A DNA stretch of 64,000 nucleotides from Paenibacillus sp. HGH0039 (GTDB lineage: Bacteria; Bacillota; Bacilli; Paenibacillales; NBRC-103111), in NCBI RefSeq assembly GCF_000411255.1, contig NZ_KE150412.1, positions 611,609-675,608 of the forward strand, read 5' to 3'. The notes below the pieces were generated by a model that was not told where the DNA came from, made no database searches, and worked only from the letters and a program-made list of their open reading frames with translations. Both the position numbers and the translations under genes were made by a program. Of the stretch, positions 10,814 through 23,389 are shown in pieces (position 1 is the first letter of the stretch; each line of letters starts with the position of its first letter).

Positions 10814-11602
10814 TTAACGGTTGGCGCGGTCTTCCCCCGCTCCCTCCAGCCGGTCGCAATAAATATGCATCGCTTCTTTCAGGAAAGCGGAGAATCCGGC
10901 CCCGTGCCGGTCAATGTTGGCCGTGAAGCGTTCATCGGCGACATACAAGTCGCCGAGTCCCCGGAAAATTTCCGGCGTACAGTCGTAGAAATGGCCCGTA
11001 ATCCACTGCCGGAGTTCGGCTGCCGCTTCCTGAGCCTGCGGGCTTGACGGGCCTTCCGCCATTGCGGCTGCGGCTTTGGCATAAATCCGCTCGGACTGCC
11101 CCATGATATCCGCCCACTGTTCCTTTGTATAGGAACCTGCGCGTTTCTCCACGGCGTCCATCGTTTGACTTCCGTACTTTTCACGCGCTTCGGCGGCATA
11201 TTTTTTCTTATGCTCTTCCAGCGGGGTGCGGTCGAAGCTTTCGAATAATTGTTCTTTTCTCATCGGAATACCTCCCTCGACAGAAGCAATCGTTCTGTCC
11301 ACGGTTTCAATGATGTCTTCCAGCCGCTTCTTCTTGCGGAGAAGCAGCTCCTTGTGTCCGATTAACGCACGTTTACGATCAAAATCGGGATTCTCCAGCA
11401 TCGCCTTGATCTCCTGTAGAGCAAAGCCGATTTCTTTGAAAAACAAAATCTGCTGAAGTCGTTCCAGATTCCGGTCCGTATACAGCCGGTAGCCGGCGGC
11501 GTTGACCGAGTCGGGTACAAGCAGGCCGATTTCGTCGTAATGATGAAGCGTGCGTACGCTCACGCCCACCAGATCCGCCACTTCCTTCACCTTATACGCC
11601 AC
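10814..11602 (-). CDS. MerR-family regulator with TipAS ligand-binding domain
   Basis: The 262-residue protein has a MerR DNA-binding domain (residues 1-75: VKEVADLVGVSVRTLHHYDE, GYRLYTDRNLERLQQILFFK), a coiled-coil dimerisation helix (75-110), and a C-terminal TipAS-type domain (about 140-250, ending GFSAFLKEAMHIYCDR). TipAS domains in TipA and Mta recognise antibiotics or other drugs and activate efflux or resistance genes. The GTG start follows GAGGTGAT. The promoter just upstream has the 19-bp spacer diagnostic of MerR-controlled promoters, and an identical core recurs at 22441, upstream of a DUF2268 gene. It is probably an autoregulated activator. Confidence 0.9.
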   Translation of the reverse strand: MAYKVKEVADLVGVSVRTLHHYDEIGLLVPDSVNAAGYRLYTDRNLERLQQILFFKEIGFALQEIKAMLENPDFDRKRALIGHKELLLRKKKRLEDIIETVDRTIASVEGGIPMRKEQLFESFDRTPLEEHKKKYAAEAREKYGSQTMDAVEKRAGSYTKEQWADIMGQSERIYAKAAAAMAEGPSSPQAQEAAAELRQWITGHFYDCTPEIFRGLGDLYVADERFTANIDRHGAGFSAFLKEAMHIYCDRLEGAGEDRANR

Positions 11603-11620
11603 AACATCACCTCGTTATGA

Positions 11621-11651
11621 ACTTTACACGATCACGTAACGTGAGGGTCAA
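11621..11651 (-). promoter_or_regulatory. MerR-type promoter and operator of the MerR/TipAS gene
   Basis: Minus strand: -35 TTGACC, 19-base spacer containing the palindrome TCACGTTACGTGA, -10 TAAAGT. The over-long spacer with a central dyad is the hallmark of promoters remodelled by MerR proteins. The -35 element overlaps the stop codon of the SNF2 gene, so the MerR gene can be transcribed independently of it. Confidence 0.8.
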
Positions 11652-14600
11652 TCCCCGTTTTCGCCTATTTCCATCTTGTCGTCCAGCATCAGGATGTCGC
11701 GAATCTCCTGTTCCGTCATCGTGGACACCGATTCTTCCCCCGGCCGGATCACTTCCTCGATCAGCGTGCGCTTTTTCTGCTGAAGCTGGAACATTTTCTC
11801 CTCGACCGTACCCTGGCTGACCAGGCGGATTACCTGCACCACTTTCTTCTGGCCCATCCGGTAAGCCCGGTCCGCAGCCTGCTGCTCGACAGCCGGATTC
11901 CACCACAAATCATACAAAATAACCGTGTCCGCTCCCGTCAGGTTAAGTCCGGTTCCCCCCGCTTTCAGCGAAATGAGGAAGACTTCTTTCTCCCCTTCGT
12001 TAAAACGGCTGCAAAGCTCTACCCGCTCGCTTCCCTTCGTTTTGCCGTCGAGGTAAAAATGCGGCACCCCTTCGTAGCCGAGCTCCCGGGAAATGAGGCC
12101 GAGCATTTCGGTGAACTGCGAGAAAATCAGCATGCGTTTGCCCGCGCTGCGGCATTCCTCTACGATCTCCAGCAGCTGCTCGAACTTGGCCGAGCTTCCC
12201 TCGTAACCGTCGACGAACAAAGCGGGATGGCAGCAAATCTGGCGGAGCCGGGTCAAGCCGGCGAGAATACGGATGCGGTTCTGCTGGAAGCTTTCCTCGT
12301 GGAGATGCTTGAGCGTCTCATGCCGGAGCTTCGCCAGAAAAGCGGTATACAGCTTCTTCTGCTCCGGCAGCAGCTCCGATGCCTGGACGGTTTCGATTTT
12401 ATCCGGCAGCTCCTTGAGCACATCGGTTTTGAGCCTGCGCAGCAGAAACGGTCTGGCTCGCCGGGCCACCGCCTCCCGGGACAGCTCGTTAAACGCCTGC
12501 CGGGCGGGAAACAGCCCGGGAAAGACCGCGTCGAAGATCGACCACAGTTCTTCGAGCTTGTTTTCTACCGGCGTGCCGGTCAGGGCAAAGCGGTAGGCCG
12601 CCTTGATTTGTTTGACGGACTGGGCGGTCTGGGTCGTATAGTTTTTGAACATCTGCGCCTCGTCAAGGATCAGCGTATGAAACGATTCTTTCGCGTAAAG
12701 ATCCGTGTCCCGCCTCAGCAGCGGATACGAAGTAAGAATGACATCCGCCTTCGATCCTTTGCGCAGAGCGCGGCTGCGCTGCGTTTTCGTCCCGTCGGCG
12801 ATGACCGCGCGGATTTCCGGCGCGAATTTTTTGAGCTCGTGAAGCCAGTTGTATACCAGCGATGCCGGGGAAACGATCAGCGCGGGCAGCTTCTTTTTCC
12901 GGATATCCGGCAGCACGGACACGAGAAAGGCAATGCTCTGAATCGTTTTGCCGAGCCCCATATCGTCCGCCAGAATTCCGCCGAAATGGTAATGAGCCAG
13001 CGTTTTCATCCATTGGTAACCGAATTTCTGGTAATCCCTCAGAATGGGAGAGAGCCGCTCCGGCACCGGGAAATCCAGGTTGTCCGGATTCCGCATATTT
13101 TCCAGCAGTCGCCGGAACGACTTGCCGAGTTTAACGGAACTGCCTCTTTCCCGCGCGTCCGTCAAATGCAATCCGCGGTTAACCGGCAGACGGAATCCCG
13201 TATCCGTCATGTCGCCTTTTCCCGCTCCGGCCTCGTTCATCAGTGCGATAATCTCCTGGAACTCGGCGCTTTCCAAAGGAACAAGAGAGCCGTTCGGCAG
13301 CCGGTGATACTTTCTTTTGACCTGCATGGACCGGATCAGATTCCGGATTTCGGCTTCCGGCAGACCGAGCAGCTCGAATTTGAACTCGAGCCAGTCGGTG
13401 CGCTCGTCCACTTCTACCGTAATCTGAGGCGGAAAGCCGGTATACAGCCTTTCTTTTACGGCGGAGGTCGCATATATATCCAGCATCCGCTCGAGCAGGG
13501 GAACCGTATGATACAAGAAATCATACTCCGCTTCCTCGTCGTCCCAGAAATAGCCGCCTTCCGTCTTCGCGAACGAGTTCTGTTCCATGAGGCGGATGAT
13601 GGTTTCCTCTTTCTCGGTGTCCCGCATCACAATATAGTCGGTCCCGCGCTGCCGGCCGGCTTCCTCCAGCGGATTCAGGACCACATTGCCGTAGTGGAAT
13701 TCCAGACCCGCCAGCAGCCGGTCCCTGACCCGGTCCAGATACAGCTTCGCCTTGAGCGTCGTCTGGTAAATCCGGTCCGACACGGAGGGAGCGATCCGGA
13801 CCTGTCCGAGCTTCATCAGTCCGGGAACCACTTTCTCCATGAACGGCTCCATCTGGCCCGGTGTAATGGTCAGGCGGTTCCGGTGCGCCGTCTCCATCAG
13901 GCGCTTCAGCTCCGCCAGCCGCTTGCAGTGGTGAGCCGGAAGCTCCAGCAGTTCGCCTTGGTGCAGGACGATTCCGTACGTTTCCATCACCGTAATGCGG
14001 TCCAGGCCCTGCACGTCCATCCGGTAGCCGTCCGTTTCCGACCGGTCAAAATCGAATTGGAGCGGCAGCGGCTCGCCCGACACCCGTATGCCGTCGTATA
14101 CTCCTTCCGCCAGCTCCAGCTTGACGCCCGGGGCACGAGCGAGCAGCGGCTGCAGCGTCGTCCACGAAAACGGCGGAATAAGCAGCATCCGCTCGCCTCC
14201 CGGAAATGCCTTCGCGGAGGATGCGGACGAATACCCGGTTTCCCTGTACAAGCTCTCGTTCTGGTAAATCTTGATAAGCTGCCGCAGAACGTCATCATGC
14301 TCCTGCCGGAAACCGTGAAGATTCGGCTCATACGTGAACACTCTGGAAAATTCGTACGCTTCCCTGCGGTCGAGCCGCTCCAGGAAATCTCTTATTTTTT
14401 GTACGATATATACTCTTTTCGGCCCGATTTTCAGTTCGGCGGCGAACATGACTTTACGAAACCCGTAGGCGAAAGGCCGGATCACGATTTCCAGATCCAG
14501 CATCTCCCTCTCATCCCGCGTAAAACGGGTGCTCCCCGGCCGCCTGCTTCCTCCGAAAAGCCCCAGCATGCTGCGGGTCAATTCGGTGTCATAAGGGGGA

Positions 14601-14998
14601 GCTTCCCCCGTTTGGCCGGGTTCCGGCAATCCGGAAGGTGCGGCTGCGCTTTCGCTCCGGCCTTCAGACGAACGTTCAAGCAGAGCCGCGCCCGGGAAAT
14701 CCTTGTCCGTCCGGCTTGAATCCAGCAGCTTGAGCAGCACGGCCGCCGTATGCTTGCAGGATTGTCTGAAAGAAGGAAGCGACGGGCAGGTGCACTCCGC
14801 GTTGATGCCGCCTCCGGACTGCACGCTCACTTTTACGAGATAGCTCTCGCGGTCGTCCACGGTCGCCTCCACACTCTGCAGGACGGGATCATGGTAGGTA
14901 AAAACAACTTTCCCGGAGCGGTTCAGCGCCTCTCCTTTATCGTAAGCGGTCCGGCCGCATAACAGCTGGATCGCTTTGCGTGTCAATGCAGAACTCAT
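11648..14998 (-). CDS. SWIM zinc-finger SNF2-family ATPase/helicase
   Basis: The product is a 1116-residue protein. A SWIM finger (ECTCPSLPSF then CKHTAAVLL) lies near residues 60-85. A large middle region (about 130-620) follows, then a SNF2 ATPase core: Walker A ADDMGLGKTIQ, DEAQ box, ALTGTPVENKLEELWS, then the helicase C domain with LISLKAGGTGLNLTGA and DRAYRMGQKK. Such bacterial Swi2/Snf2 ATPases translocate on DNA or remodel protein-DNA complexes, possibly in transcription recycling or repair. ATG 14998 follows GAAAGGAG. An open frame continues 92 codons upstream but has no ribosome site and looks non-coding, so it was dropped. Confidence 0.92.
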   Translation of the reverse strand: MSSALTRKAIQLLCGRTAYDKGEALNRSGKVVFTYHDPVLQSVEATVDDRESYLVKVSVQSGGGINAECTCPSLPSFRQSCKHTAAVLLKLLDSSRTDKDFPGAALLERSSEGRSESAAAPSGLPEPGQTGEAPPYDTELTRSMLGLFGGSRRPGSTRFTRDEREMLDLEIVIRPFAYGFRKVMFAAELKIGPKRVYIVQKIRDFLERLDRREAYEFSRVFTYEPNLHGFRQEHDDVLRQLIKIYQNESLYRETGYSSASSAKAFPGGERMLLIPPFSWTTLQPLLARAPGVKLELAEGVYDGIRVSGEPLPLQFDFDRSETDGYRMDVQGLDRITVMETYGIVLHQGELLELPAHHCKRLAELKRLMETAHRNRLTITPGQMEPFMEKVVPGLMKLGQVRIAPSVSDRIYQTTLKAKLYLDRVRDRLLAGLEFHYGNVVLNPLEEAGRQRGTDYIVMRDTEKEETIIRLMEQNSFAKTEGGYFWDDEEAEYDFLYHTVPLLERMLDIYATSAVKERLYTGFPPQITVEVDERTDWLEFKFELLGLPEAEIRNLIRSMQVKRKYHRLPNGSLVPLESAEFQEIIALMNEAGAGKGDMTDTGFRLPVNRGLHLTDARERGSSVKLGKSFRRLLENMRNPDNLDFPVPERLSPILRDYQKFGYQWMKTLAHYHFGGILADDMGLGKTIQSIAFLVSVLPDIRKKKLPALIVSPASLVYNWLHELKKFAPEIRAVIADGTKTQRSRALRKGSKADVILTSYPLLRRDTDLYAKESFHTLILDEAQMFKNYTTQTAQSVKQIKAAYRFALTGTPVENKLEELWSIFDAVFPGLFPARQAFNELSREAVARRARPFLLRRLKTDVLKELPDKIETVQASELLPEQKKLYTAFLAKLRHETLKHLHEESFQQNRIRILAGLTRLRQICCHPALFVDGYEGSSAKFEQLLEIVEECRSAGKRMLIFSQFTEMLGLISRELGYEGVPHFYLDGKTKGSERVELCSRFNEGEKEVFLISLKAGGTGLNLTGADTVILYDLWWNPAVEQQAADRAYRMGQKKVVQVIRLVSQGTVEEKMFQLQQKKRTLIEEVIRPGEESVSTMTEQEIRDILMLDDKMEIGENGD

Positions 14999-15094
14999 CC
15001 GGTACTCCTTTCCGGCAAAAAAAATCTCTTTTTTGTCCGTCCTGGTTCGGACGTCGTGTCCTCTTATGATACCAGAATGGACGGGAAAGAAAAG

Positions 15095-15137
15095 AAAGAG
15101 CCTTCCCGAAGCCGCATAGGTTTCAGGAAAGCTCTTT
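15095..15137 (-). terminator. Probable copA terminator
   Basis: AAAGAGC and GCTCTTT with adjacent TTCC / GGAA pairs form a stem. On the minus strand a T-rich tail (TTTCTTTTCTTT) follows. Confidence 0.55.
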
Positions 15138-15153
15138 ACAAGTGTTTTTGTTC

Positions 15154-15282
15154 CGGCTCCCGTATGAGCGCGGATTCGACCGACCGCCGCGCGCAGGGCC
15201 GCAGCGAGCGCCTGGGATTCGCGCGCGTTGGAAAGGCCCACGCCAGCCCGCGGAAGGGCGGACAATGCTCTCACGGGAGCCG
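15154..15282. other. GC-rich element with nested inverted repeats (possible structured RNA)
   Basis: A 10-bp outer stem (CGGCTCCCGT at 15154-15163 with ACGGGAGCCG at 15273-15282) encloses a CGCGCGC / GCGCGCG stem and two small hairpins (GCCC / GGGC among them). It lies 30 bases beyond the copA stop codon and before the copA terminator on the minus strand. Whether it is transcribed, and on which strand, is unknown. High GC makes chance pairing easier. Confidence 0.35.
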
Positions 15283-15312
15283 TACTTTCGTCCGGACCGG
15301 GGGCCGCGAGAC

Positions 15313-17757
15313 TTACAACTTAACCCGCTGCAGCCTCAGCGCATTCAGCACGACGGACACCGAGCTGAGCGCCATGGCGGCTCCGGCGATCCAAGGGGCA
15401 AGCAGGCCCAGTGCGGCGACCGGAATGCCGAGCGTGTTGTAACCGAGCGCCCAGAACAGGTTCTGACGGATGTTGCCCATCGTTCTGCGGCTCATATAGA
15501 TCGCATCCGGGATCGAGTTGAGATCGCCGCGCATCAGGGTGACGTCCGCCGCCTCCATGGCGACATCCGTGCCAGTGCCGATCGCCATGCCGATATCCGC
15601 CTGCGCCAGCGCCGGAGCATCATTGATGCCGTCGCCGACCATCGCCACCTTCTTGCCCTGGGCTTGAAGCTTCTTCACTTCCTCGGCTTTGCCTTCGGGA
15701 AGCACCTCCGCCCTTACCTGGTCGATCCCGACCTGGCGGGCGATCGCCTGAGCGGTGCGCTCGTTGTCGCCGGTAATCATGATGACTTCGATGCCCATTC
15801 CCTTCAGACGGGCAACGGCCTCTTTCGACGTTTCCTTGACGGTATCGGCGACCGCAACGAGCCCGGCATAGCTGCGGTTGACCGCAACGAGCATGGCCGT
15901 TTTGCCTTCCTGCTCCAGCCGCGCCATTGTTTCGCCCGCATGCCCCGCATCCACCTCGTAGCGGCTCATCAGCTTGCGCGTTCCCGCCAGAACTTCCTGT
16001 CCGTCCACGACCGCACGGATTCCGAAGCCGGGAATGGCTTCAAATTCGGACGAAGCCGGAACAGAGACGCCTCGTGCCGCAATCCCGCTGACGATCGCTT
16101 CCGCCAGAGGATGCTCCGAATTTTTCTCCGCGGCGCCCAGAAGCTCCAGGAACCGTCTCTCGTCCATCGAAGCGGTCAACACATCCGTAAGCTCGGGTTT
16201 GCCTTTCGTGACGGTTCCCGTTTTGTCCAAAATAATCGCGTCGATTCCGTGCGTGGATTCCAAGTGCTCTCCGCCTTTGAAAAGAATCCCGAGCTCCGCC
16301 GCCCGTCCGGAACCCGCCATAATCGACGTCGGTGTCGCCAATCCGAGCGCGCAAGGGCAGGCAATGACGAGTATGGCGATCGCTTTTTCCAGCGCTCCCG
16401 CAAAATCGCCCGGCGTGACCCAGAAATACCAGATCACAAACGCCGCGAGCGCAATACCGACGACAATCGGTACGAAAATGCCGGATATGACGTCCGCCAC
16501 GCGCTGGATCGGTGCTTTGGAGCCTTGGGCTTCCTCGACCACTTTAATAATCTGGGCCAAAGCGGTATCCTTGCCGACTTTGGTCGCCCGGATTCTCAGA
16601 CTGCCGTTTTTGTTGAGCGTCGCCCCGATGACCGGATCTCCGGCCTTTTTGCCGACGGGCAGGCTCTCGCCGGTCAGCATCGACTCATCCACCGAAGAGC
16701 TGCCTTCCAGCACTTCTCCGTCCACCGGTATTTTCTCGCCGGGTTTGACCAGGACGATATCGCCCGCGATCACTTCTTCGACCGGCACCGCCGCTTCTTT
16801 CCCGTCCCGGATGACTAGCGCCGTTTTGGCCTGCAGCCCCATCAGCGATTTGATCGCTTCCGAGGTGCGGCCTTTGGCCAGCGACTCGAATAATTTGCCG
16901 AGCAGAACGAGCGTGATCAGGACCGCACTCGTTTCGTAATACATCTCCGGCCCGTCGTGAACGCTGCCGCCGTGCCTTGCCCACTCTACGGTCAGATAGA
17001 GGCTGTAGAAATAAGCCGCGGAAGTTCCGAGCGACACAAGCACGTCCATGTTGGCGCTTTTGTTGCGCAGGGCTTTGTAAGCGCCCGTATAGAACTGACG
17101 TCCGATATAAAACTGCACCGGGGTGGCCATCGCAAGCTGGAACCACGGGTTCATAAACAAGTCGGGCAGCCAGACCCACGACATAAAGGAAAAGTGGCTG
17201 ACCATCGACCAGAGCAGCGGCAGGGACAGAATCGCCGAGAGAATCAGCTTGCGCTTGTGCCGCTTGAGCTCCTCCTGCCGGTGTACCGCAGGGTCTCCCT
17301 GTTCCTGCTTGAGAAGTGCCTTGTAGCCCAGCTTCTCGACTTTGTGCTGCATATCGGCAGGCATAACCTCGCCCGGCTCGTACTCGACATGCGCGGTTTC
17401 GAGCGCGAAGTTGACGGTTGCGGATGTGACGCCCGGCATTTTGGCAAGCCCTTTCTCAATCCGGTTGGCGCACGCTGCGCACGTCATTCCCTCCAGCTGA
17501 AAATCCACGGAATCCTTCACGGTGCTGTAGCCCAGCTTGCCGATTTTCTCTTCCAATTGTGCCGTATTCACCCGGGAAGGATCGTAGGTGACGGTCGCGC
17601 GTTCCAGAGCGAAATTCACATTAGCGGTTTGCACACCGTCGACTTTATTCAGCCCTTTCTCGATCCGGTTGGCACAAGCCGCGCAGGTCATTCCCGCTAT
17701 TTGCAAATTCGCCTGTTTCGTCGCCTCTTCTCCGGCCGCTTTCACGTTTGCTGCCAT
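15313..17757 (-). CDS. copA: Copper-exporting P1B-type ATPase
   Basis: The 814-residue protein has two N-terminal heavy-metal-associated domains, each with [10 protein letters not shown] (about residues 22 and 90). The P-type core contains the CPC membrane motif ([16 protein letters not shown]), the phosphorylation loop [19 protein letters not shown], and [16 protein letters not shown]. The last helices carry YN and MALSS, the Cu+-site residues of the P1B-1 class. It expels Cu+ from the cytoplasm. ATG 17757 follows AAAGAGGTG; a GTG three codons upstream overlaps that site. The csoR and copZ genes that often accompany copA are not adjacent, but a CsoR-like box lies in its promoter. Confidence 0.96.
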
Positions 17758-17836
17758 TCGAAACACCTCTTTCCGCCTCTGAAAATCTTCGTCTTATAAG
17801 ATGAGAAAAGTCCCTCTTCTTCATTCGGTTAATTAT

Positions 17837-17865
17837 AGTATACCCCCCTACCCTATATTTAGCAA
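17837..17865 (-). promoter_or_regulatory. copA promoter with CsoR-like operator
   Basis: Minus strand -35 TTGCTA and -10 TATACT with a 17-base spacer. Overlapping them is TATACCCCCCTACCCTATA (plus-strand reading, 17839-17857), matching the G/C-tract dyad of CsoR operators that derepress copA when Cu+ is bound. Confidence 0.65.
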
Positions 17866-18012
17866 GAGGCCTTCTCCATTTATTTCAAAAAAGTAACAAT
17901 CCTTCGAAATGTGCTCCTTAAGCCGCGCGAAAGGGTAATAATGAAGAGAAGACGAAAGACGAACCAGACTACGGCATGTTGGAACAGCATGTATCGAAAC
18001 GGAGTGATCGCT

Positions 18013-19272
18013 ATGAACACGACGAAACTTCCCGTCAAAAAAACCGCCTTCCTTGCGGTTCTCACGGCGGTATCCCTTACCGCCTGCAGCTCTATCGGCC
18101 CTGCGGCGGCGGGGGATCCGACCGGCAGCGGCAGTACAGCGGCATCGGTCGCCGCAAGCCCGGGTCCCGCTTCCGGAACGGCTGCTCCGGCAAGCGCAGC
18201 GCCTGTGCCTTCGGTTAAGCCGGATCAGATCCAGACCCGGTTGACCGATTTTCAGTTGATCTCGGATGCGGCGGGTTTCGCCTGGGGAGAGACGAACGGC
18301 TCCCTGCGCTTATACCGCACCGATGACGGCGGACGAAACTGGACTCTCCTGAGTCCCTGGGACGACACGTTCAAAAGCGGAGCGCCTTTGGCGGGCGGCT
18401 CCCTCTACTTCCTCGACGCGCAGCACGGATGGACGGCCGCAGCGGATGACGGCCGGAAAACCGTGACCGCTTTTACGGCCGACGGCGGGCAGAGCTGGAC
18501 CAAAGGTACCCTGGATAAGCCGACTTATGCCGCCGGTCTCTCTTTTGCCGATCCCCTGCACGGCTGGATGCTCACCTCTTCCGATGCGGCGATGGGCAAA
18601 TCGGAGAAAACGCTGTACGCCACGGACAACGGCGGCAAGGTCTGGAAACCGCTGACGAGCGTTTCCCTGGATAAGCCCGTGCCCGGAGCGCTGCCCCTGT
18701 CGGGACATGCATCCGGCATGACTTTCAAGGACGCCGCCAGCGGCTGGATTGCCCTCGCGGGCCATGAAGAAAAACCGGTCCTGTACCGCACGCGGGACAG
18801 CGGGAAAACGTGGAACGTCGTTCCGATGAAGGTCCCGCAGGAGTTGAATGATTCTTCGGTCACACTGGACGGGGCTCCCGTATTTTTCAAGGATGAACCG
18901 GACAAAGGCTGGATTCCCGTACGGACGGTGAGCGGCAATACGGAAAGCCGCGACGCTTATGTGACGAAGGACGGCGGGCAAACGTGGTCCTTTAAGCAAA
19001 CCGGCATGCAAAACGCGCTCACTTTTGCGGACAGCTTGCACGGCTGGGGATTCAAGGATAAAGTTCTCCATGCCACTTCGGATGGCGGCACAACCTGGAA
19101 CCCGGTTTCATCCGATCCGGTTTTGACGGATACGCTCAAAAATAATCCGAACGTGATCCGGCTCGGATTCGCCGGTCCGCAGACGGGCTGGCTGCTGCTC
19201 GGCTCGGAGGACGGCAAGAAATCGAAGCTGCTTAAGACGTCCGATGCAGGCAAGCATTGGATTTTGTTGTAG
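18013..19272 (+). CDS. BNR/Asp-box beta-propeller lipoprotein
   Basis: The 419-residue product begins with a lipoprotein signal (AVLTAVSLTACSS) and a low-complexity Ala/Gly/Pro/Ser linker to about residue 75. Seven Asp-box repeats follow: DDGGRNWT, ADGGQSWT, DNGGKVWK, RDSGKTWN, KDGGQTWS, SDGGTTWN and SDAGKHW. This is the pattern of BNR or Ycf48-like propellers. No sialidase catalytic residues are evident, so it is probably a binding or assembly protein on the outer face of the membrane. The ATG at 18013 follows GGAGTGAT; an upstream in-frame ATG at 17911 lacks a signal-peptide context. It is divergent from copA. Confidence 0.85.
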   Translation: MNTTKLPVKKTAFLAVLTAVSLTACSSIGPAAAGDPTGSGSTAASVAASPGPASGTAAPASAAPVPSVKPDQIQTRLTDFQLISDAAGFAWGETNGSLRLYRTDDGGRNWTLLSPWDDTFKSGAPLAGGSLYFLDAQHGWTAAADDGRKTVTAFTADGGQSWTKGTLDKPTYAAGLSFADPLHGWMLTSSDAAMGKSEKTLYATDNGGKVWKPLTSVSLDKPVPGALPLSGHASGMTFKDAASGWIALAGHEEKPVLYRTRDSGKTWNVVPMKVPQELNDSSVTLDGAPVFFKDEPDKGWIPVRTVSGNTESRDAYVTKDGGQTWSFKQTGMQNALTFADSLHGWGFKDKVLHATSDGGTTWNPVSSDPVLTDTLKNNPNVIRLGFAGPQTGWLLLGSEDGKKSKLLKTSDAGKHWILL

Positions 19273-19305
19273 CTTTCCCCGTGGCCCGCAGCTGCAATCG
19301 CATAA

Positions 19306-19350
19306 CCTCAAAAAGCAATCCTTCCTTTCGGACGGGATTGCTTTTTGAGG
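19306..19350. terminator. Bidirectional terminator between convergent genes
   Basis: A 16-bp stem (CCTCAAAAAGCAATCC with its complement) and 12-base loop supply an A/T tract on either side, serving the propeller lipoprotein (+) and the AAA ATPase (-). Confidence 0.8.
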
Positions 19351-19364
19351 TTTGAACTCGCCGA

Positions 19365-20084
19365 TCAATCCAGCAGTTCCTGGAGATAGAAAGAACGATT
19401 TTCCAGAAAGCGGCGGGTAATCCGGTAATGGTCGGTTTCCTCATACGCAGTGAGGCGGACCGGAGATTCGTTGAAATTGTAGATGTCCGCATGGGGATAA
19501 CCCAGCAAAATAGGCGAATGAGTGGCGATTATAAGCTGCGACGTCCGGGCCAGTTCATGGATCATGCTCAGAAAAACGAGCTGGCGGGCCGGAGATAACG
19601 CGGCTTCCGGCTCATCGAGCAGATAGATGCCTCTTCTTCCGAAGCGGTTCTTGAACAGGGACAGAAAAGATTCGCCGTGCGACTGCTCATGAAGCGACCT
19701 GCCGCCGTAACTGTCATAAGCCCTGCGGTCTTCCCGCGCCAGTTCGTCGATATGACTGGCGAAATGATAGAACGACTCCGCCCGCAGAAAAAAACCCTCG
19801 TTCATCTTCGGCATCCAGGAGAGGCGCAAATAATCGCCCAGCTTTGCCTCCGACGAATCCAGCTCGTACAGATTGTTCCGGCTGCCTCCCGCCGTATTGA
19901 ACCCGCATTGGTAAGCGATCGCTTCCATCAGGGTCGATTTGCCGGAGCCGTTCTCGCCGACGAAAAACGTGACGTTTTTATGGAATTTCAGCCGGTCGAG
20001 CTTGTCGATCGCCGGAATATGAAACGGGTACTCGTGCGGATTCCGAATTTTCTCGTGCAGTTTGATCACTTCGTGCAGGTACAT
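19365..20084 (-). CDS. AAA/ABC-type ATPase
   Basis: The 239-residue single-domain ATPase contains Walker A GENGSGKSTL (about 42-51), a degenerate ABC signature (LSPARQ), Walker B IYLLDEPEAAL and a switch His in IIATHSPIL. This matches the stand-alone ATPases (AAA_23/SMC-like) related to phage OLD or ABC-F-like proteins and not a transporter subunit, since no permease is nearby. The ATG at 20084 follows GGAG at 8 bases; codons further upstream are unlike the family. The cellular role is unknown. Confidence 0.8.
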   Translation of the reverse strand: MYLHEVIKLHEKIRNPHEYPFHIPAIDKLDRLKFHKNVTFFVGENGSGKSTLMEAIAYQCGFNTAGGSRNNLYELDSSEAKLGDYLRLSWMPKMNEGFFLRAESFYHFASHIDELAREDRRAYDSYGGRSLHEQSHGESFLSLFKNRFGRRGIYLLDEPEAALSPARQLVFLSMIHELARTSQLIIATHSPILLGYPHADIYNFNESPVRLTAYEETDHYRITRRFLENRSFYLQELLD

Positions 20085-20423
20085 CGTAACGCTCCGTTCC
20101 GTTGCGGATGAATCTGAAGCCGGTGCGGTGGTTAAGCAGAAACTCATCCGCTGCTTTTTTAGCCTGCAGACTACTTCTCCTTCCGGCACGCAATCCCCTG
20201 CAATCCCACCCGTCAAAAAAACCGAAAAAACCAGACTCTGCTGTGCAGAACCGGCTCTTCAGGTATTCCATAGCGTGAAGGAGAGCGATGAGGGCGTCAG
20301 CGGTGACGACCTGTCTGAGGACTGCCCGGCGAATTTCTTGCCATGCCGGACGGTTCGCTAGTAAGAAGCGTGTCCGCCTGCCTGCGCTTGATGCTGCGTT
20401 CAAATCGCTGCTGTTTCTTCCGC
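20085..20423. other. Gene-free stretch
   Basis: No convincing gene was found. Overlapping open frames here lack ribosome sites and have no recognisable protein signature. No terminator with a T-run was seen. Confidence 0.45.
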
Positions 20424-20810
20424 TTACTTCGTCTGTGCTTCTTTCCGCTTCGTCTTGCTCTGGCCTTCTTTCGTATCCGGTCTGGCCGCGAGTTCGTCGT
20501 CATAGGTATAGCTGATGTGTGCTTCCACTGGGCTTCCGCCGATCAGATGCTCACGGACAATGCGCCTCCCGATTTCAGGGGTCACCTCTTTGTACCATAC
20601 CCCCTCCGGGTACACGGTAATGACGCAGGCATCCTCGCATCTGCCCTGACAGCGCGTCCGGGTCGTATGGATCCGGCCATCCGCTTCCTGCAGCTTGATC
20701 TCATCGCGCATCGCCTCGACGACTTCTTCCGCTCCTTTTTTGGTACAGCTGCCCCCGTTGCAAAAGAAAAGATGATGTTTCATGCCGTTCAGATTCCAAG
20801 TTGTCATCAT
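20424..20810 (-). CDS. Thioredoxin-like [2Fe-2S] ferredoxin domain protein
   Basis: The 128-residue protein reads [20 protein letters not shown] in the N-terminal part and [19 protein letters not shown] in the middle. The Cys spacing C-x4-C then C-x3-C (with one more Cys) is that of thioredoxin-fold 2Fe-2S proteins found near cobalamin or bacillithiol genes. A Lys/Thr-rich tail of 30 residues follows the domain. ATG after GGAGACC. It probably transfers electrons or binds a cluster in the cytosol; the partner is unknown. Confidence 0.8.
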
Positions 20811-20913
20811 GGTCTCCTTTTATAAAATAGGAATTGGAAAATAATTAATTATTCGTAACTATTACGATAAAACGTATCGTACACAGATTTCGCGGATCTG
20901 TCAACGGATCCAT

Positions 20914-20948
20914 CAAAAAAACCGCCTTCCCGCAAGGAGAAGACGGCC
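20914..20948 (-). terminator. Terminator of the small membrane protein gene
   Basis: CCGTCTTC and GAAGGCGG pair (one G-T) around a CCTTGCGG-type loop, followed on the minus strand by TTTTTTT. Confidence 0.75.
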
Positions 20949-20967
20949 TTATGATTCGAGATCCGAT

Positions 20968-21225
20968 TCAGTAACGCCGCTCATCCTCAGGCTCGTTAAC
21001 TAAACGCTCCCGATCCTGATTCTTCTGCACGTTCTGCGGCTGCATGTCCAGCAAACGGTCCAGTTTCTCCTCGATTCTTTGCAGCTTGGTCAGTGTGAAC
21101 AGTCTGCGGTTGACTCTAGTCCGGATAAACATCGATAAGCTGGTAATAAAAATAGCGATGAATCCGAAGATAACAAGCAAGTAAACGATGCTGGCCCAGG
21201 AAACGAACCCGATCGTGTCCATCAT
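20968..21225 (-). CDS. Small single-pass membrane protein (DUF4083-like)
   Basis: The 85-residue protein has one strong membrane helix (about 8-35, IVYLLVIFGFIAIFITSL), then a basic stretch and an amphipathic helix (KLQRIEEKLDRLLDM) with a charged tail. This layout, and the EKLDRLL segment, resemble DUF4083 proteins of Bacillaceae. Function unknown. Transcribed alone or with the genes upstream on the same strand. Confidence 0.6.
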   Translation of the reverse strand: MMDTIGFVSWASIVYLLVIFGFIAIFITSLSMFIRTRVNRRLFTLTKLQRIEEKLDRLLDMQPQNVQKNQDRERLVNEPEDERRY

Positions 21226-21311
21226 TTTTTGTTCAACCTCGTTTCATTTAATCGGTCTTGAATCTTTCCGCTTGCGTACTTGCGTCTTCCGGCCTTGCGG
21301 TCTATCAACTT

Positions 21312-21698
21312 TCAGCCGATTTCTCTCGAAAGCACTTCAATCTCGTGTTTGTTGCGCTCCCCGTGCCCGATACGGAGCCGATGCCCGTCCAAATCGCGGA
21401 TCACGAACTCTCTCATTCCCCAAGACTTGGATTGGATCTCCTCTATGAAATCCACCTTCTGCGTTTTCAAAAATTGATAGACTTGATCCGCGTTTCGGAC
21501 AAAAAAATAAAGCGTCTGAACTTCGACCTTGTCCGATTTCGTAAAATGAACCTCGATATTCCCATTGTAGACCGATCCGTATGTATCTTCCAGAACCCAA
21601 GCCAGGTCAAACTTTAGCACGTCGCGGTAAAATTCAAGCGCCTTGAATACATTTTTAACGGGCAGTACCGGTGCTTGATGCTGAATATATTTCTTCAT
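21312..21698 (-). CDS. VOC-superfamily (glyoxalase/bleomycin-resistance fold) protein
   Basis: The 128-residue protein shows paired beta-alpha-beta-beta-beta modules: APVLPVKNVFKALEFYRDVL, IEVHFTKSD, then LYFFVRNADQVYQFL and EFVIRDLDGHRLRIGHGE. The closing DLDGHRLRIG motif is typical of VOC proteins related to bleomycin/fosfomycin resistance or dioxygenases. The metal and substrate cannot be assigned. ATG after AAGGAGAAGAAA. Confidence 0.8.
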   Translation of the reverse strand: MKKYIQHQAPVLPVKNVFKALEFYRDVLKFDLAWVLEDTYGSVYNGNIEVHFTKSDKVEVQTLYFFVRNADQVYQFLKTQKVDFIEEIQSKSWGMREFVIRDLDGHRLRIGHGERNKHEIEVLSREIG

Positions 21699-21711
21699 TT
21701 TCTTCTCCTTA

Positions 21712-22074
21712 TTATAGTGAGCGCAGATGCCTGTCTGTGCGTCTTTCCCGGATGATTCCCACGATCCACACCAATAAATTCAATCCAACGAGATTTGAAA
21801 CCAGATACATCCACCAGGTGTACAAACCGAATCCTTGAGGATGCGTGTTCATGTAAAGCAATAAAATCCATCCGAAAAAGCGGACTCCGTTTAAGAGCCA
21901 TGAATCTTTCCGAAACAAAATAGCTCCCGGCTCAACCGGAACATCCCTGTATTTCACCAGAGAAAGTGCAAAAAGTAAGAGATGCATAATCACGTAAATC
22001 ACAGCAACAAACAGAGGATACACAATCATGGCAAACAATGCGCCTATCAAATTATCCGCTTCGGATGCACCCAC
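21712..22074 (-). CDS. Four-helix integral membrane protein of unknown function
   Basis: The 120-residue protein contains hydrophobic segments at about 8-42 (two close helices), 63-78 and 86-110, with a short basic C-tail. No family recognised. The GTG at 22074 is preceded by AAGGGGAT very close to it, just after the stop of a 30-codon open frame, so the two may be coupled. The exact start is uncertain. Confidence 0.6.
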   Translation of the reverse strand: MGASEADNLIGALFAMIVYPLFVAVIYVIMHLLLFALSLVKYRDVPVEPGAILFRKDSWLLNGVRFFGWILLLYMNTHPQGFGLYTWWMYLVSNLVGLNLLVWIVGIIRERRTDRHLRSL

Positions 22075-22080
22075 ATCCCC

Positions 22081-22173
22081 TTAAAAAACGAAGTGCTCGA
22101 ACTTTTTATATTCCGTGAAGCAGGAAAGCAGCGATAACAGACAGCTGAGTACAAAATAAGATCCTTTCTTCAT
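22081..22173 (-). CDS. Possible 30-residue lipoprotein-like peptide
   Basis: ATG 22173 follows GGGAG at 8 bases. The peptide MKKGSYFVLSCLLSLLSCF and 11 more residues have a basic start, a hydrophobic stretch and a lipobox-like LSLLSC. The stop touches the ribosome site of the membrane-protein gene downstream. It could be a leader peptide or a small membrane peptide. Evidence is only positional. Confidence 0.35.
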   Translation of the reverse strand: MKKGSYFVLSCLLSLLSCFTEYKKFEHFVF

Positions 22174-22388
22174 AAGACTCGCTCCCGAAGAAAAATCAAC
22201 CTCTTCCAGTATATGGTTTATCGTTGGCTGTTACAACTATTTATCTCGCCATAGTTTTCTTACCGCATAATCCCCTCCAGCCCTCACGTCTGTTGTTCCT
22301 TAGCCATGTATTCGACAGACTTCCATCTTATTCCTTTTCCTTTTATGTAAGACTATGTAAGATTTTATCTTTTTATATGACAAATAAA

Positions 22389-22410
22389 AGACAGCTCACA
22401 GGAGCTGTCT
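22389..22410 (-). terminator. Orphan hairpin with T-rich tail on the minus strand
   Basis: A perfect 9-bp stem (AGACAGCTC / GAGCTGTCT) with a 4-base loop is followed on the minus strand by TTTTATTTG. No minus-strand gene ends here, so it may insulate the promoter at 22441 or end antisense transcripts. Confidence 0.45.
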
Positions 22411-22440
22411 CTAAACGCCGGATCTCTTTCCGTCTCCCCC

Positions 22441-22471
22441 TTGACCCTCACGTTACGTGATCGTTTAGACT
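22441..22471 (+). promoter_or_regulatory. MerR-type promoter of the DUF2268 gene
   Basis: -35 TTGACC, a 19-base spacer with the palindrome TCACGTTACGTGA, and -10 TAGACT. From -35 through base 18 of the spacer (24 bases) the sequence equals that of the MerR/TipAS promoter 11 kb away. Only the -10 region differs. This makes the gene a predicted target of that regulator. Confidence 0.8.
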
Positions 22472-22495
22472 GGCGACAGGAGGTGGCTACCCCTT

Positions 22496-23389
22496 ATGAA
22501 ACTTGCCATAGAACCGACATTGAACCACTATGCCAGCCTGTATGACCTGCCTGAGGGCGAACGGGAAAATTATTTCCGTTATACGATGATGAAACCTTTC
22601 GAAACGATGTGGAACCTCATCGGGGTTCCGCTCAAAGCAGGGCAGCCCAGAGGCTATGACGTCCTGACTGCTTCGGGAATGCTCGGCTATCTCTCTGTCC
22701 GCGAGACGGAGTCCGGCCTGGCGGCGCTGGAGAAACTCCGGCAGGCGAAGGCGGAGGAGACAGCCTTGTCCGCCCTGCGGCGCTGCATGAGCTTTGCCGA
22801 GCAGGCGGAGCTGCGGGTCCGCGCGGACGAGCTCCGGTTCGGCCTGTATCTCGCCGATCCCCTCAAGCTTGAGCTTCAAGGAGGAACATGCGGGTTCGGA
22901 GGCATTCCCGGATACATCCAGGTCATGCTTCATCCGACCGAATGGAATTTACCCCGGCTTCCCGCCGTCATCGCCCACGAATTCCATCATAATCTGCGGT
23001 TTTCCTATTTCGGCTGGGATCACGGAAATGTGACGCTGGGCGATTATCTCGTCATCGAAGGCCTTGCCGAGTCGTTTGCCCGCGAGCTGTTCGGCGAGGA
23101 GCTGCTTGGCCCCTGGGTCACCTCCATGGAGCCGGACGATTTCGAATACTCGCTCCATGTGTTCAAAGACGCCCTGGCCCTCAAAGGGTTTGCCGAAGTC
23201 AGCAGCTACATGTTCGGAGACTTGTACGCCAGAGAGCAGGGGTTTGCTCCTGCGGGCGTGTCCCCTTTTGCAGGGTATTCGGTCGGCTATGCCGCCGTCC
23301 AAGCTTTTCTCGGAGCGAACGATGTGACCATCGGTGAAGCGACTTTGCTGGGTACCGAAGAAATTCTCGGAAGCTGCGGGTTATTCTGA
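22496..23389 (+). CDS. DUF2268 putative zinc-dependent protease
   Basis: The 297-residue protein carries a gluzincin-type HEFHHNLR motif (near 161) preceded by PRLPAVIA and followed by EGLAESFARELFG, with the downstream Glu expected of a metal ligand. This is the DUF2268 pattern (Bacillus YjaZ-like), annotated as predicted Zn-dependent protease. No signal peptide is visible, so it is probably cytosolic. ATG after GGAGG. Its promoter matches that of a TipAS-type drug-sensing regulator, which suggests induction by a small molecule. The biochemical substrate is unknown. Confidence 0.85.
   Translation: MKLAIEPTLNHYASLYDLPEGERENYFRYTMMKPFETMWNLIGVPLKAGQPRGYDVLTASGMLGYLSVRETESGLAALEKLRQAKAEETALSALRRCMSFAEQAELRVRADELRFGLYLADPLKLELQGGTCGFGGIPGYIQVMLHPTEWNLPRLPAVIAHEFHHNLRFSYFGWDHGNVTLGDYLVIEGLAESFARELFGEELLGPWVTSMEPDDFEYSLHVFKDALALKGFAEVSSYMFGDLYAREQGFAPAGVSPFAGYSVGYAAVQAFLGANDVTIGEATLLGTEEILGSCGLF

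Follow-up and report, generated by a model that had tools for sequence, protein, structure and literature searches.

Among the TipA-class regulators of bacteria, Mta of Bacillus subtilis has the efflux genes bmr and blt among its targets, and the TipAS domain of AlbA of Klebsiella binds albicidin. The subject of this report is a further regulator of this class, encoded in a 64 000 nucleotide stretch (the window) of Paenibacillus sp. HGH0039 (contig NZ_KE150412.1, positions 611,609 to 675,608), together with a gene for a predicted Zn-dependent protease of family DUF2268, which lies behind a nearly identical promoter, 10.8 kb from the regulator's own site. In the portions of PMC7762955 on which we draw here and below, TipAS domains are described as binding thiopeptides and as autoinhibiting the regulator until drug relieves the block; TipA is presented there as one gene that combines the roles of sensor, activator and neutralizer, an albicidin resistance protein is the name given to AlbA, and the functions and drugs of TipA-class regulators outside Streptomyces lividans are mostly unreported. 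According to the same portions, promoters of the operator class found in the window are bound in vitro by Mta, TipAL and SkgA, and TTGACCCTAACGTTGCGTGATTGTTT (mta), TTGCACCTCACGTCACGTGAGGAGGC (tipA) and TTGACCCTCACGCCACGTCAGACCTG (skgA) served as promoter probes in binding assays with full-length and truncated proteins (PMC7762955). A known target of Mta, as given in the part of PMC3503724 cited here, is ymfE.

An initial annotation, made from the sequence of the window alone, had read the two genes as a TipAS activator driving a zinc-protease-like protein. The features that bear on this reading are as follows.

10814..11602, minus strand: MerR-type regulator with a TipAS antibiotic-recognition domain, 262 amino acids (aa), GTG start (PF07739, MerR_1)
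11621..11651, minus strand: predicted autoregulatory TipA-type promoter/operator (TTGACC, 19-bp spacer, TAAAGT)
22441..22471, plus strand: predicted second TipA-type promoter/operator (TTGACC, 19-bp spacer, TAGACT)
22476..22485, plus strand: ribosome-binding site ACAGGAGGTG of the DUF2268 gene (read directly)
22496..23389, plus strand: DUF2268 predicted Zn-dependent protease, 297 aa, HExxHN clade (PF10026, 8.5e-48; tree and motifs)
22976..22993, plus strand: codons of H161-E162-x-x-H165-N166, the HExxH motif (invariant in 18 aligned members)
23057..23074, plus strand: codons of E188-G-L-A-E-S, inferred to hold the likely third metal ligand (18 aligned members)

Two matching promoters in one genome

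The window regulator is a TipA-class MerR regulator, with an N-terminal MerR DNA-binding domain and a C-terminal TipAS domain (PF07739, 4e-38; MerR_1, PF13411, 7.9e-19), and its closest solved relatives are 3qao, SkgA (7cla), MtaN (1jbg) and TipA (2vz4/2mbz). The DUF2268 match reaches 162.9 bits against a curated cut-off of 23.6, and both gene calls of the initial annotation, the MerR/TipAS gene on the minus strand and the DUF2268 gene on the plus strand, are confirmed by the family matches. Its description of the two promoters also proved correct when the letters were re-read: TTGACC, the first 18 of the 19 spacer bases and the palindrome are common to both, and the -10 hexamers differ. The regulator promoter reads TTGACC-CTCACGTTACGTGATCGTG-TAAAGT (minus strand, 11651-11621) and the DUF2268 promoter TTGACC-CTCACGTTACGTGATCGTT-TAGACT (plus strand, 22441-22471). 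Within the common spacer lies an imperfect palindrome, TCACG-TTA-CGTGA, and the sites are identical over 24 bases, the agreement extending beyond the palindrome. A palindromic promoter with a 19-bp spacer in front of the regulator's own gene is a trait of the TipA class, and by its letters such a promoter appears to be present here as well. Relative to the published mta probe, identity is 22 of 26 bases for the TipAS site and 23 of 26 for the DUF2268 site. The regulator site starts 49 bp upstream of its gene, and its -35 overlaps the stop codon of the preceding gene.

11648-15274, minus strand: SNF2 helicase gene, upstream of the TipAS regulator gene

The 20-base core TTGACCCTCACGTTACGTGA, searched with up to 3 mismatches, occurs exactly twice in the 6.36-Mb genome, both times without mismatch, whereas the reversed control pattern has no match; the pair of window sites is therefore not a product of chance. 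With a looser 31-base pattern (17 fixed positions) the two window sites are again the only places in the whole genome without mismatch, and four further places have 1-2 mismatches.

Since the genome contains 23 MerR-domain matches, another of its MerR regulators might control the DUF2268 promoter, the resemblance to the TipAS site then reflecting a shared ancestry of MerR operators. The 21 loci examined cover all 23 matches, since the frames of the two left out coincide in length and place with two that were included. The TipAS gene of the window alone has the operator in front of it (0 of 23 mismatches); the next best locus has 7, a site at a greater distance upstream of a different MerR gene (L216) also has 7, and some paralogues carry other palindromes. 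The window sites moreover agree even outside the palindrome, and we rejected the other MerR genes as owners of the site because among the 21 loci only the TipAS gene fits. A short MerR gene does precede DUF2268 in about 15 of 80 loci from other genomes (see below), but control of the window promoter by another MerR regulator seems to us quite improbable. In a single-protein scan of genome contigs, 77 pattern matches were returned and none was confirmed. A similar site (TTGAAAGTGACGTTACGTCATTTTGTATACT in one genome) recurs before another MerR gene in several genera (e.g. L216, L250, L282) and is a separate MerR system.

The operator and DUF2268 in other bacteria

The initial annotation had proposed a search of the genome and its relatives for the site and had named lack of conservation of the pair as the outcome that would speak against it. 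In that search the TipAS gene has the site in all five genomes of the genus, and an intact window-type DUF2268 gene with the site is found in three of the five (the window genome, G059 and G060), an outcome that favours the proposal; beyond the genus the operator class likewise accompanies this DUF2268 clade. In G059 and G060 the regulator gene and the DUF2268 gene lie on separate contigs, and linkage therefore does not explain the shared site. Most of the window-type DUF2268 gene has been lost in the other two genomes (G058 and G061). G061 retains a C-terminal remnant at the same place, behind a promoter without a -10 and with three core bases changed, and this decay of the promoter alongside loss of the gene supports a regulatory link. 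A glyoxalase/bleomycin-resistance-superfamily gene (21312-21698, minus strand) close to the DUF2268 gene is kept in both G058 and G061.

In the family set of 104 genomes, searched with up to 3 mismatches, 69 genomes have the site. There are 104 site occurrences, excluding a second copy of the window site (L003). A TipAS-type regulator (match of at least 140 aa) follows directly in 45 of them, a shorter match, mostly of the MerR part, in 11, and DUF2268 in four (one being the remnant in G058). The other 44 precede neither, and with 3 mismatches allowed many of these will be chance matches or other MerR systems. DUF2268 itself occurs in 24 of the 104 genomes (29 loci), among them G058 and G061, where a second type is present elsewhere. 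In many of the 29 loci DUF2268 is preceded by a MerR-type palindromic promoter whose spacer is 19 bp long, and in ten (L105-L111, L120-L122) a TipAS-type regulator frame, whole or broken, is nearby. In one sub-type (e.g. L109) DUF2268 is followed by the TipAS gene and the palindrome is a different one, ATGACGTNNGGTCAT.

Beyond the genus we examined 80 named DUF2268 loci, the best 80 of 442 relatives by alignment search, which form 52 clusters at 90 % DNA identity. A match to the operator consensus TTGACYYTNACGYNRCGTNATNCTTTATAGT at 20 or more of its 27 fixed positions lies within 1000 bp upstream in 80 of the 80 loci and in 6 of 905 control stretches from the same loci, although the consensus was written after many of the loci had been seen and these are the closest relatives rather than a random draw. 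A scan that uses no operator letters, only hexamers, 19-bp spacing and dyad, finds 30 of the 80 loci against 6 of the 905 controls. It might be argued that chance, or a duplication of sequence without function, made the two window promoters alike, and a 24-base identity is indeed what a recent copy would give; set against this, three of five genus members have kept the site together with the DUF2268 gene, which in two of the three is not linked to TipAS, and the site stands before DUF2268 in all 80 named loci but in 6 of the 905 controls. We give this explanation almost no credence.

The distances between site and DUF2268 form groups. In 38 of the 80 loci the site is directly before DUF2268, as in the window, and in 19 DUF2268 is behind a TipAS regulator gene that has the site before it (the TipAS match being broken or partial in L138 and L154); in seven TipAS-DUF2268 loci the two genes overlap, TipAS first. 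About 15 loci have DUF2268 behind a short MerR gene, a class for which the frame was read in eight loci, three were scanned, and the others were assigned by DNA similarity and site distance. In the remaining eight loci the distance is intermediate; L140 has a truncated regulator frame and L198 a short one. L134, where a search in front of DUF2268 found no regulator, is not counted in the short-MerR class, and in L208 and L210 a TipAS gene is about 3.5 kb downstream. This grouping suggests that regulator and enzyme may once have shared an operon, and that the enzyme came under the control of a resident TipAS protein, as would be the case in the window, once the regulator had been lost or separated from it. 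We chose 26 of the 38 direct-site genomes for whole-genome search, and all 26 hold a site-bearing TipAS-type gene (by tblastn, 32-55 % identical to the window regulator; in L248 the match is split in two). For B. tequilensis and B. inaquosorum the scan at up to 2 mismatches returned two sites, one before a TipAS gene (51-52 % identity) and the other before DUF2268.

A conserved operon partner downstream of DUF2268 was also sought, as a same-strand open reading frame (ORF) of at least 80 aa starting from 20 bp before to 150 bp after the end of DUF2268, and was rejected, the 22 of 80 loci with a candidate ORF showing no common type. A transposase gene is downstream of DUF2268 in L135-L138 (L135 scanned) and, by eye, a resolvase-like gene in L197. 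In Oceanobacillus (L145-L147, L154) the gene behind TipAS-DUF2268 resembles, by eye, an acyl-CoA thioesterase/BAAT protein at its N-terminus. TipA-like operators also precede genes of other kinds: in three Paenibacillus genomes (L275, L277, L283) a gene that is methyltransferase-like by eye (228 aa) is behind one (e.g. TTGACCTTCACGCTGCGGCATACGGTAGTAT) and is a possible further TipAS target, and in two genomes (L257, L270) a gene for a cysteine-rich protein of no assigned family is directly behind another.

A tree of 46 DUF2268 proteins places 40 of them in the clade of the window protein (support 95/92), all with HExxHN, and 39 of these 40 are from loci with a MerR-type promoter or a MerR/TipAS neighbour. 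The six proteins outside the clade have other residues after HExxH, and some are on long branches. An evenly drawn sample of the phylum (299 genomes) contains 33 genomes with a DUF2268 match, 16 of them over the cut-off; the loci read were L287-L295, nine stronger ones other than the window, and L300, with the weaker ones and two strong matches without a locus left out. By eye, DUF2268 is followed by a MerR-type gene in L287, L288 and L291, and L300, a weak DUF2268 match, has a MerR-type frame nearby on the opposite strand. No MerR neighbour is present in the frames listed for L289, L290 and L292-L295, and the coupling is therefore not general to DUF2268. It is a trait of one DUF2268 clade, that with HExxHN.

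In a plasmid collection, 32 records have a DUF2268 match and 13 of these were examined. In 12 of the 13 a palindromic promoter of 19-bp spacing (6-8 of 9 dyad pairs) stands near the start of DUF2268, against a background, estimated by a similar scan only, of 163 matches in 1.17 million strand-bases, or ~0.03 per 250 bases. These 12 records, from Priestia (2), C. difficile, Streptomyces (4), Nonomuraea, Tsukamurella, Corynebacterium, Clavibacter and Deinococcus, span Bacillota, Actinomycetota and Deinococcota, although the Nonomuraea record (11.85 Mb) is rather a chromosome. In the actinobacterial records the start codon is only 7-8 bp after the -10, and the DUF2268 transcripts therefore look leaderless. 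DUF2268 is followed by a TipAS MerR gene in two of the Streptomyces records (L320, L325) and is convergent with a TipAS gene in Clavibacter (L326).

The regulator/DUF2268 pair moves between genera. Three records, named Piscibacillus, Siminovitchia and Paenibacillus bovis, have DUF2268 DNA that is 100 % identical, with an ISL3 transposase gene behind it. When several genera are compared, the short-MerR/DUF2268 unit of ~1.46 kb shows about 89-95 % identity; it is compact in L182-L191, L195, L197, L199 and L200, and in the pairs seen similarity ends near the borders of the unit.

Like the manner in which the consensus was drawn up, several observations weigh against control of DUF2268 by a TipAS regulator. 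In about 15 of the 80 loci a short MerR gene takes the place of the TipAS gene, and the three of these that were scanned have a MerR match and no TipAS match. The DUF2268 gene of G058 has a large internal deletion and yet the promoter is kept. The one exception in the HExxHN clade is a record from S. epidermidis (L317), in which DUF2268 lies between two IS6 transposase genes and has no MerR-type promoter, and no TipA-type promoter was found in the upstream region of the Clavibacter TipAS gene. Lastly, in the 26 genomes searched, the DUF2268 site agrees with the TipAS site of its own genome at a mean of 17.0 of 22 bases and with those of other genomes at 16.3; co-variation of site pairs within a genome, tried as a further line of evidence, thus gave no clear signal, and the sites do not single out the TipAS paralogue that would act in trans in these genomes. 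The two sites, their uniqueness in the window genome and the conserved association of regulator, operator and enzyme are nevertheless direct results of the computation, and the proposal of the initial annotation is supported at the level of sequence by the unique sites and the 80 of 80 against 6 of 905 loci, with a link that is wider than two genes.

A predicted drug response with an enzymatic output

The regulator gene contains a further feature that bears on its likely products.

11261..11278, minus strand: probable internal ribosome-binding site GAGGGAGGT with ATG (codon 114), which would give a free TipAS domain (sequence)

Among 81 related TipAS genes, 77 have an ATG at positions 108-118, and 74 of those 77 ATGs are preceded by at least four of six Shine-Dalgarno bases, as against 189 of 614 other in-frame ATGs. 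Glycine 110, whose codon would form the Shine-Dalgarno stretch, is kept in 78 of the 81 genes, encoded by GGA (60), GGG (15), GGT (3) and never by GGC, which accounts for 312 of 1050 glycine codons elsewhere in the same genes. The conserved internal Shine-Dalgarno/ATG and the bias against GGC at glycine 110 suggest that a free TipAS product, of the kind that tipA is known to give, may be under selection.

In the DUF2268 protein, H161, E162, H165 and N166 as well as E188, G189, L190 and A191 are invariant in 18 aligned members, and no signal peptide was seen by eye. The HExxH motif, the invariant downstream glutamate and the absence of an obvious signal peptide together fit a cytoplasmic zinc metallopeptidase-like enzyme. 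A profile search of the PDB returned no significant solved relative (best E-value 0.15).

In what follows, binding and activation are inferred, as are use of the internal start and all events that come after induction; the steps of drug release and promoter distortion are taken from published work on TipA-class and MerR regulators. The TipAS regulator, of the Mta/TipA class, would act both on its own promoter and on the DUF2268 promoter, each with an overlong spacer of 19 bp, and we consider that it very probably controls both. Without drug the TipAS domain would block DNA binding; binding of drug would release the MerR domain, and both promoters would then be distorted and switched on. One output would be more regulator, and probably also free TipAS from the internal start, soaking up drug; the other would be the cytoplasmic zinc-metallopeptidase-like enzyme, which most likely acts against the drug or repairs drug damage. 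Given the metallopeptidase features and the binding of thiopeptides and albicidin by TipAS domains, the simplest first guess is that it would destroy a peptide-like antibiotic. That the enzyme inactivates the drug is a tentative suggestion to which we give slightly less than an even chance, whereas the explanation as a whole, with a TipAS activator, two promoters and a drug-induced enzyme, is in our judgement probable.

Alternatively, the enzyme might degrade drug-loaded TipAS or the activator, and so reset the switch, rather than act on the drug. The shared control and the absence of a visible signal peptide would suit such a role, and the sensor protein is always present at induction. It is difficult, however, to reconcile with family genomes that have a site-bearing TipAS gene and no DUF2268 match (e.g. 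G002, G003, G019, G025), or with the pairing of DUF2268 with a short MerR gene that lacks a TipAS match in the three loci scanned, and we regard it as unlikely. An enzyme directed at the drug or its damage remains our preferred reading, and the DUF2268 metalloprotease-like gene may be a drug-induced defence gene, seemingly an undescribed one.

The initial annotation knew of no described link between TipAS regulators and DUF2268, and we found none either in the open-access literature, among the matches listed, a scope that leaves subscription papers mostly outside; two papers there name DUF2268, none names TipAS as well, nor does 'putative Zn-dependent protease' together with MerR have a match in the open-access literature. 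The coupling would be a TipA-class autoregulated drug response with a second, enzymatic gene. TipA-class regulators have been described as one-gene systems (PMC7762955), to which a conserved second gene would add an enzymatic output, and a conserved pairing would supply a protein family of unknown function with a trigger, and with a means of testing it. Like resistance genes, the two genes recur together, with little change, on plasmids and in different genera. A still more speculative extension, which we think somewhat doubtful, is that the HExxHN proteins are the missing effector of TipA-class drug sensing, that is, widespread mobile antibiotic-induced metallohydrolases of Bacillota, Actinomycetota and Deinococcota that inactivate the peptide-like antibiotics recognized by TipAS.

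Comparison with Mta, TipA, SkgA and YjaZ-type genes

The window DUF2268 gene adjoins fabF, convergently, and we considered on this account whether it is yjaZ. The order fabF, DUF2268, oligopeptide-type ABC transporter genes in L289 and L290 is what we take to be the YjaZ type. Proteins of this type have HExxH, a downstream EGLAE and the family match in common with the window protein, but they form a separate branch with HEYHHV instead of HExxHN, and neither a MerR neighbour nor a 19-bp palindromic promoter was seen in L289 and L290. The identification with yjaZ is thus ruled out by the convergent orientation, the tree branch and the promoter.

Among the regulators, SkgA of Caulobacter aligns over residues 2-248 of the window protein and its probe is of the same type as the window sites; for SkgA, AlbA and other TipA-class regulators no DUF2268 partner is described in the portions of PMC7762955 cited here. 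Mta, which likewise joins MerR and TipAS domains, is closely similar to the N-terminal half of the window regulator in the MtaN alignment, and its autopromoter, represented by the mta probe, belongs to the same operator class; a DUF2268 target of Mta is not reported in the literature searched. TipAL/TipAS of S. lividans is an autoregulated drug-sensing activator with an operator of the same type as those of the window. Where TipA has its second cysteine (DCGYEMHTC in 2mbz), the window regulator has a glycine, and the free TipAS product of S. lividans has its counterpart in the conserved potential internal start. TipA is a single gene, however, while in the window a second, metallopeptidase-like gene appears to be under the same control.

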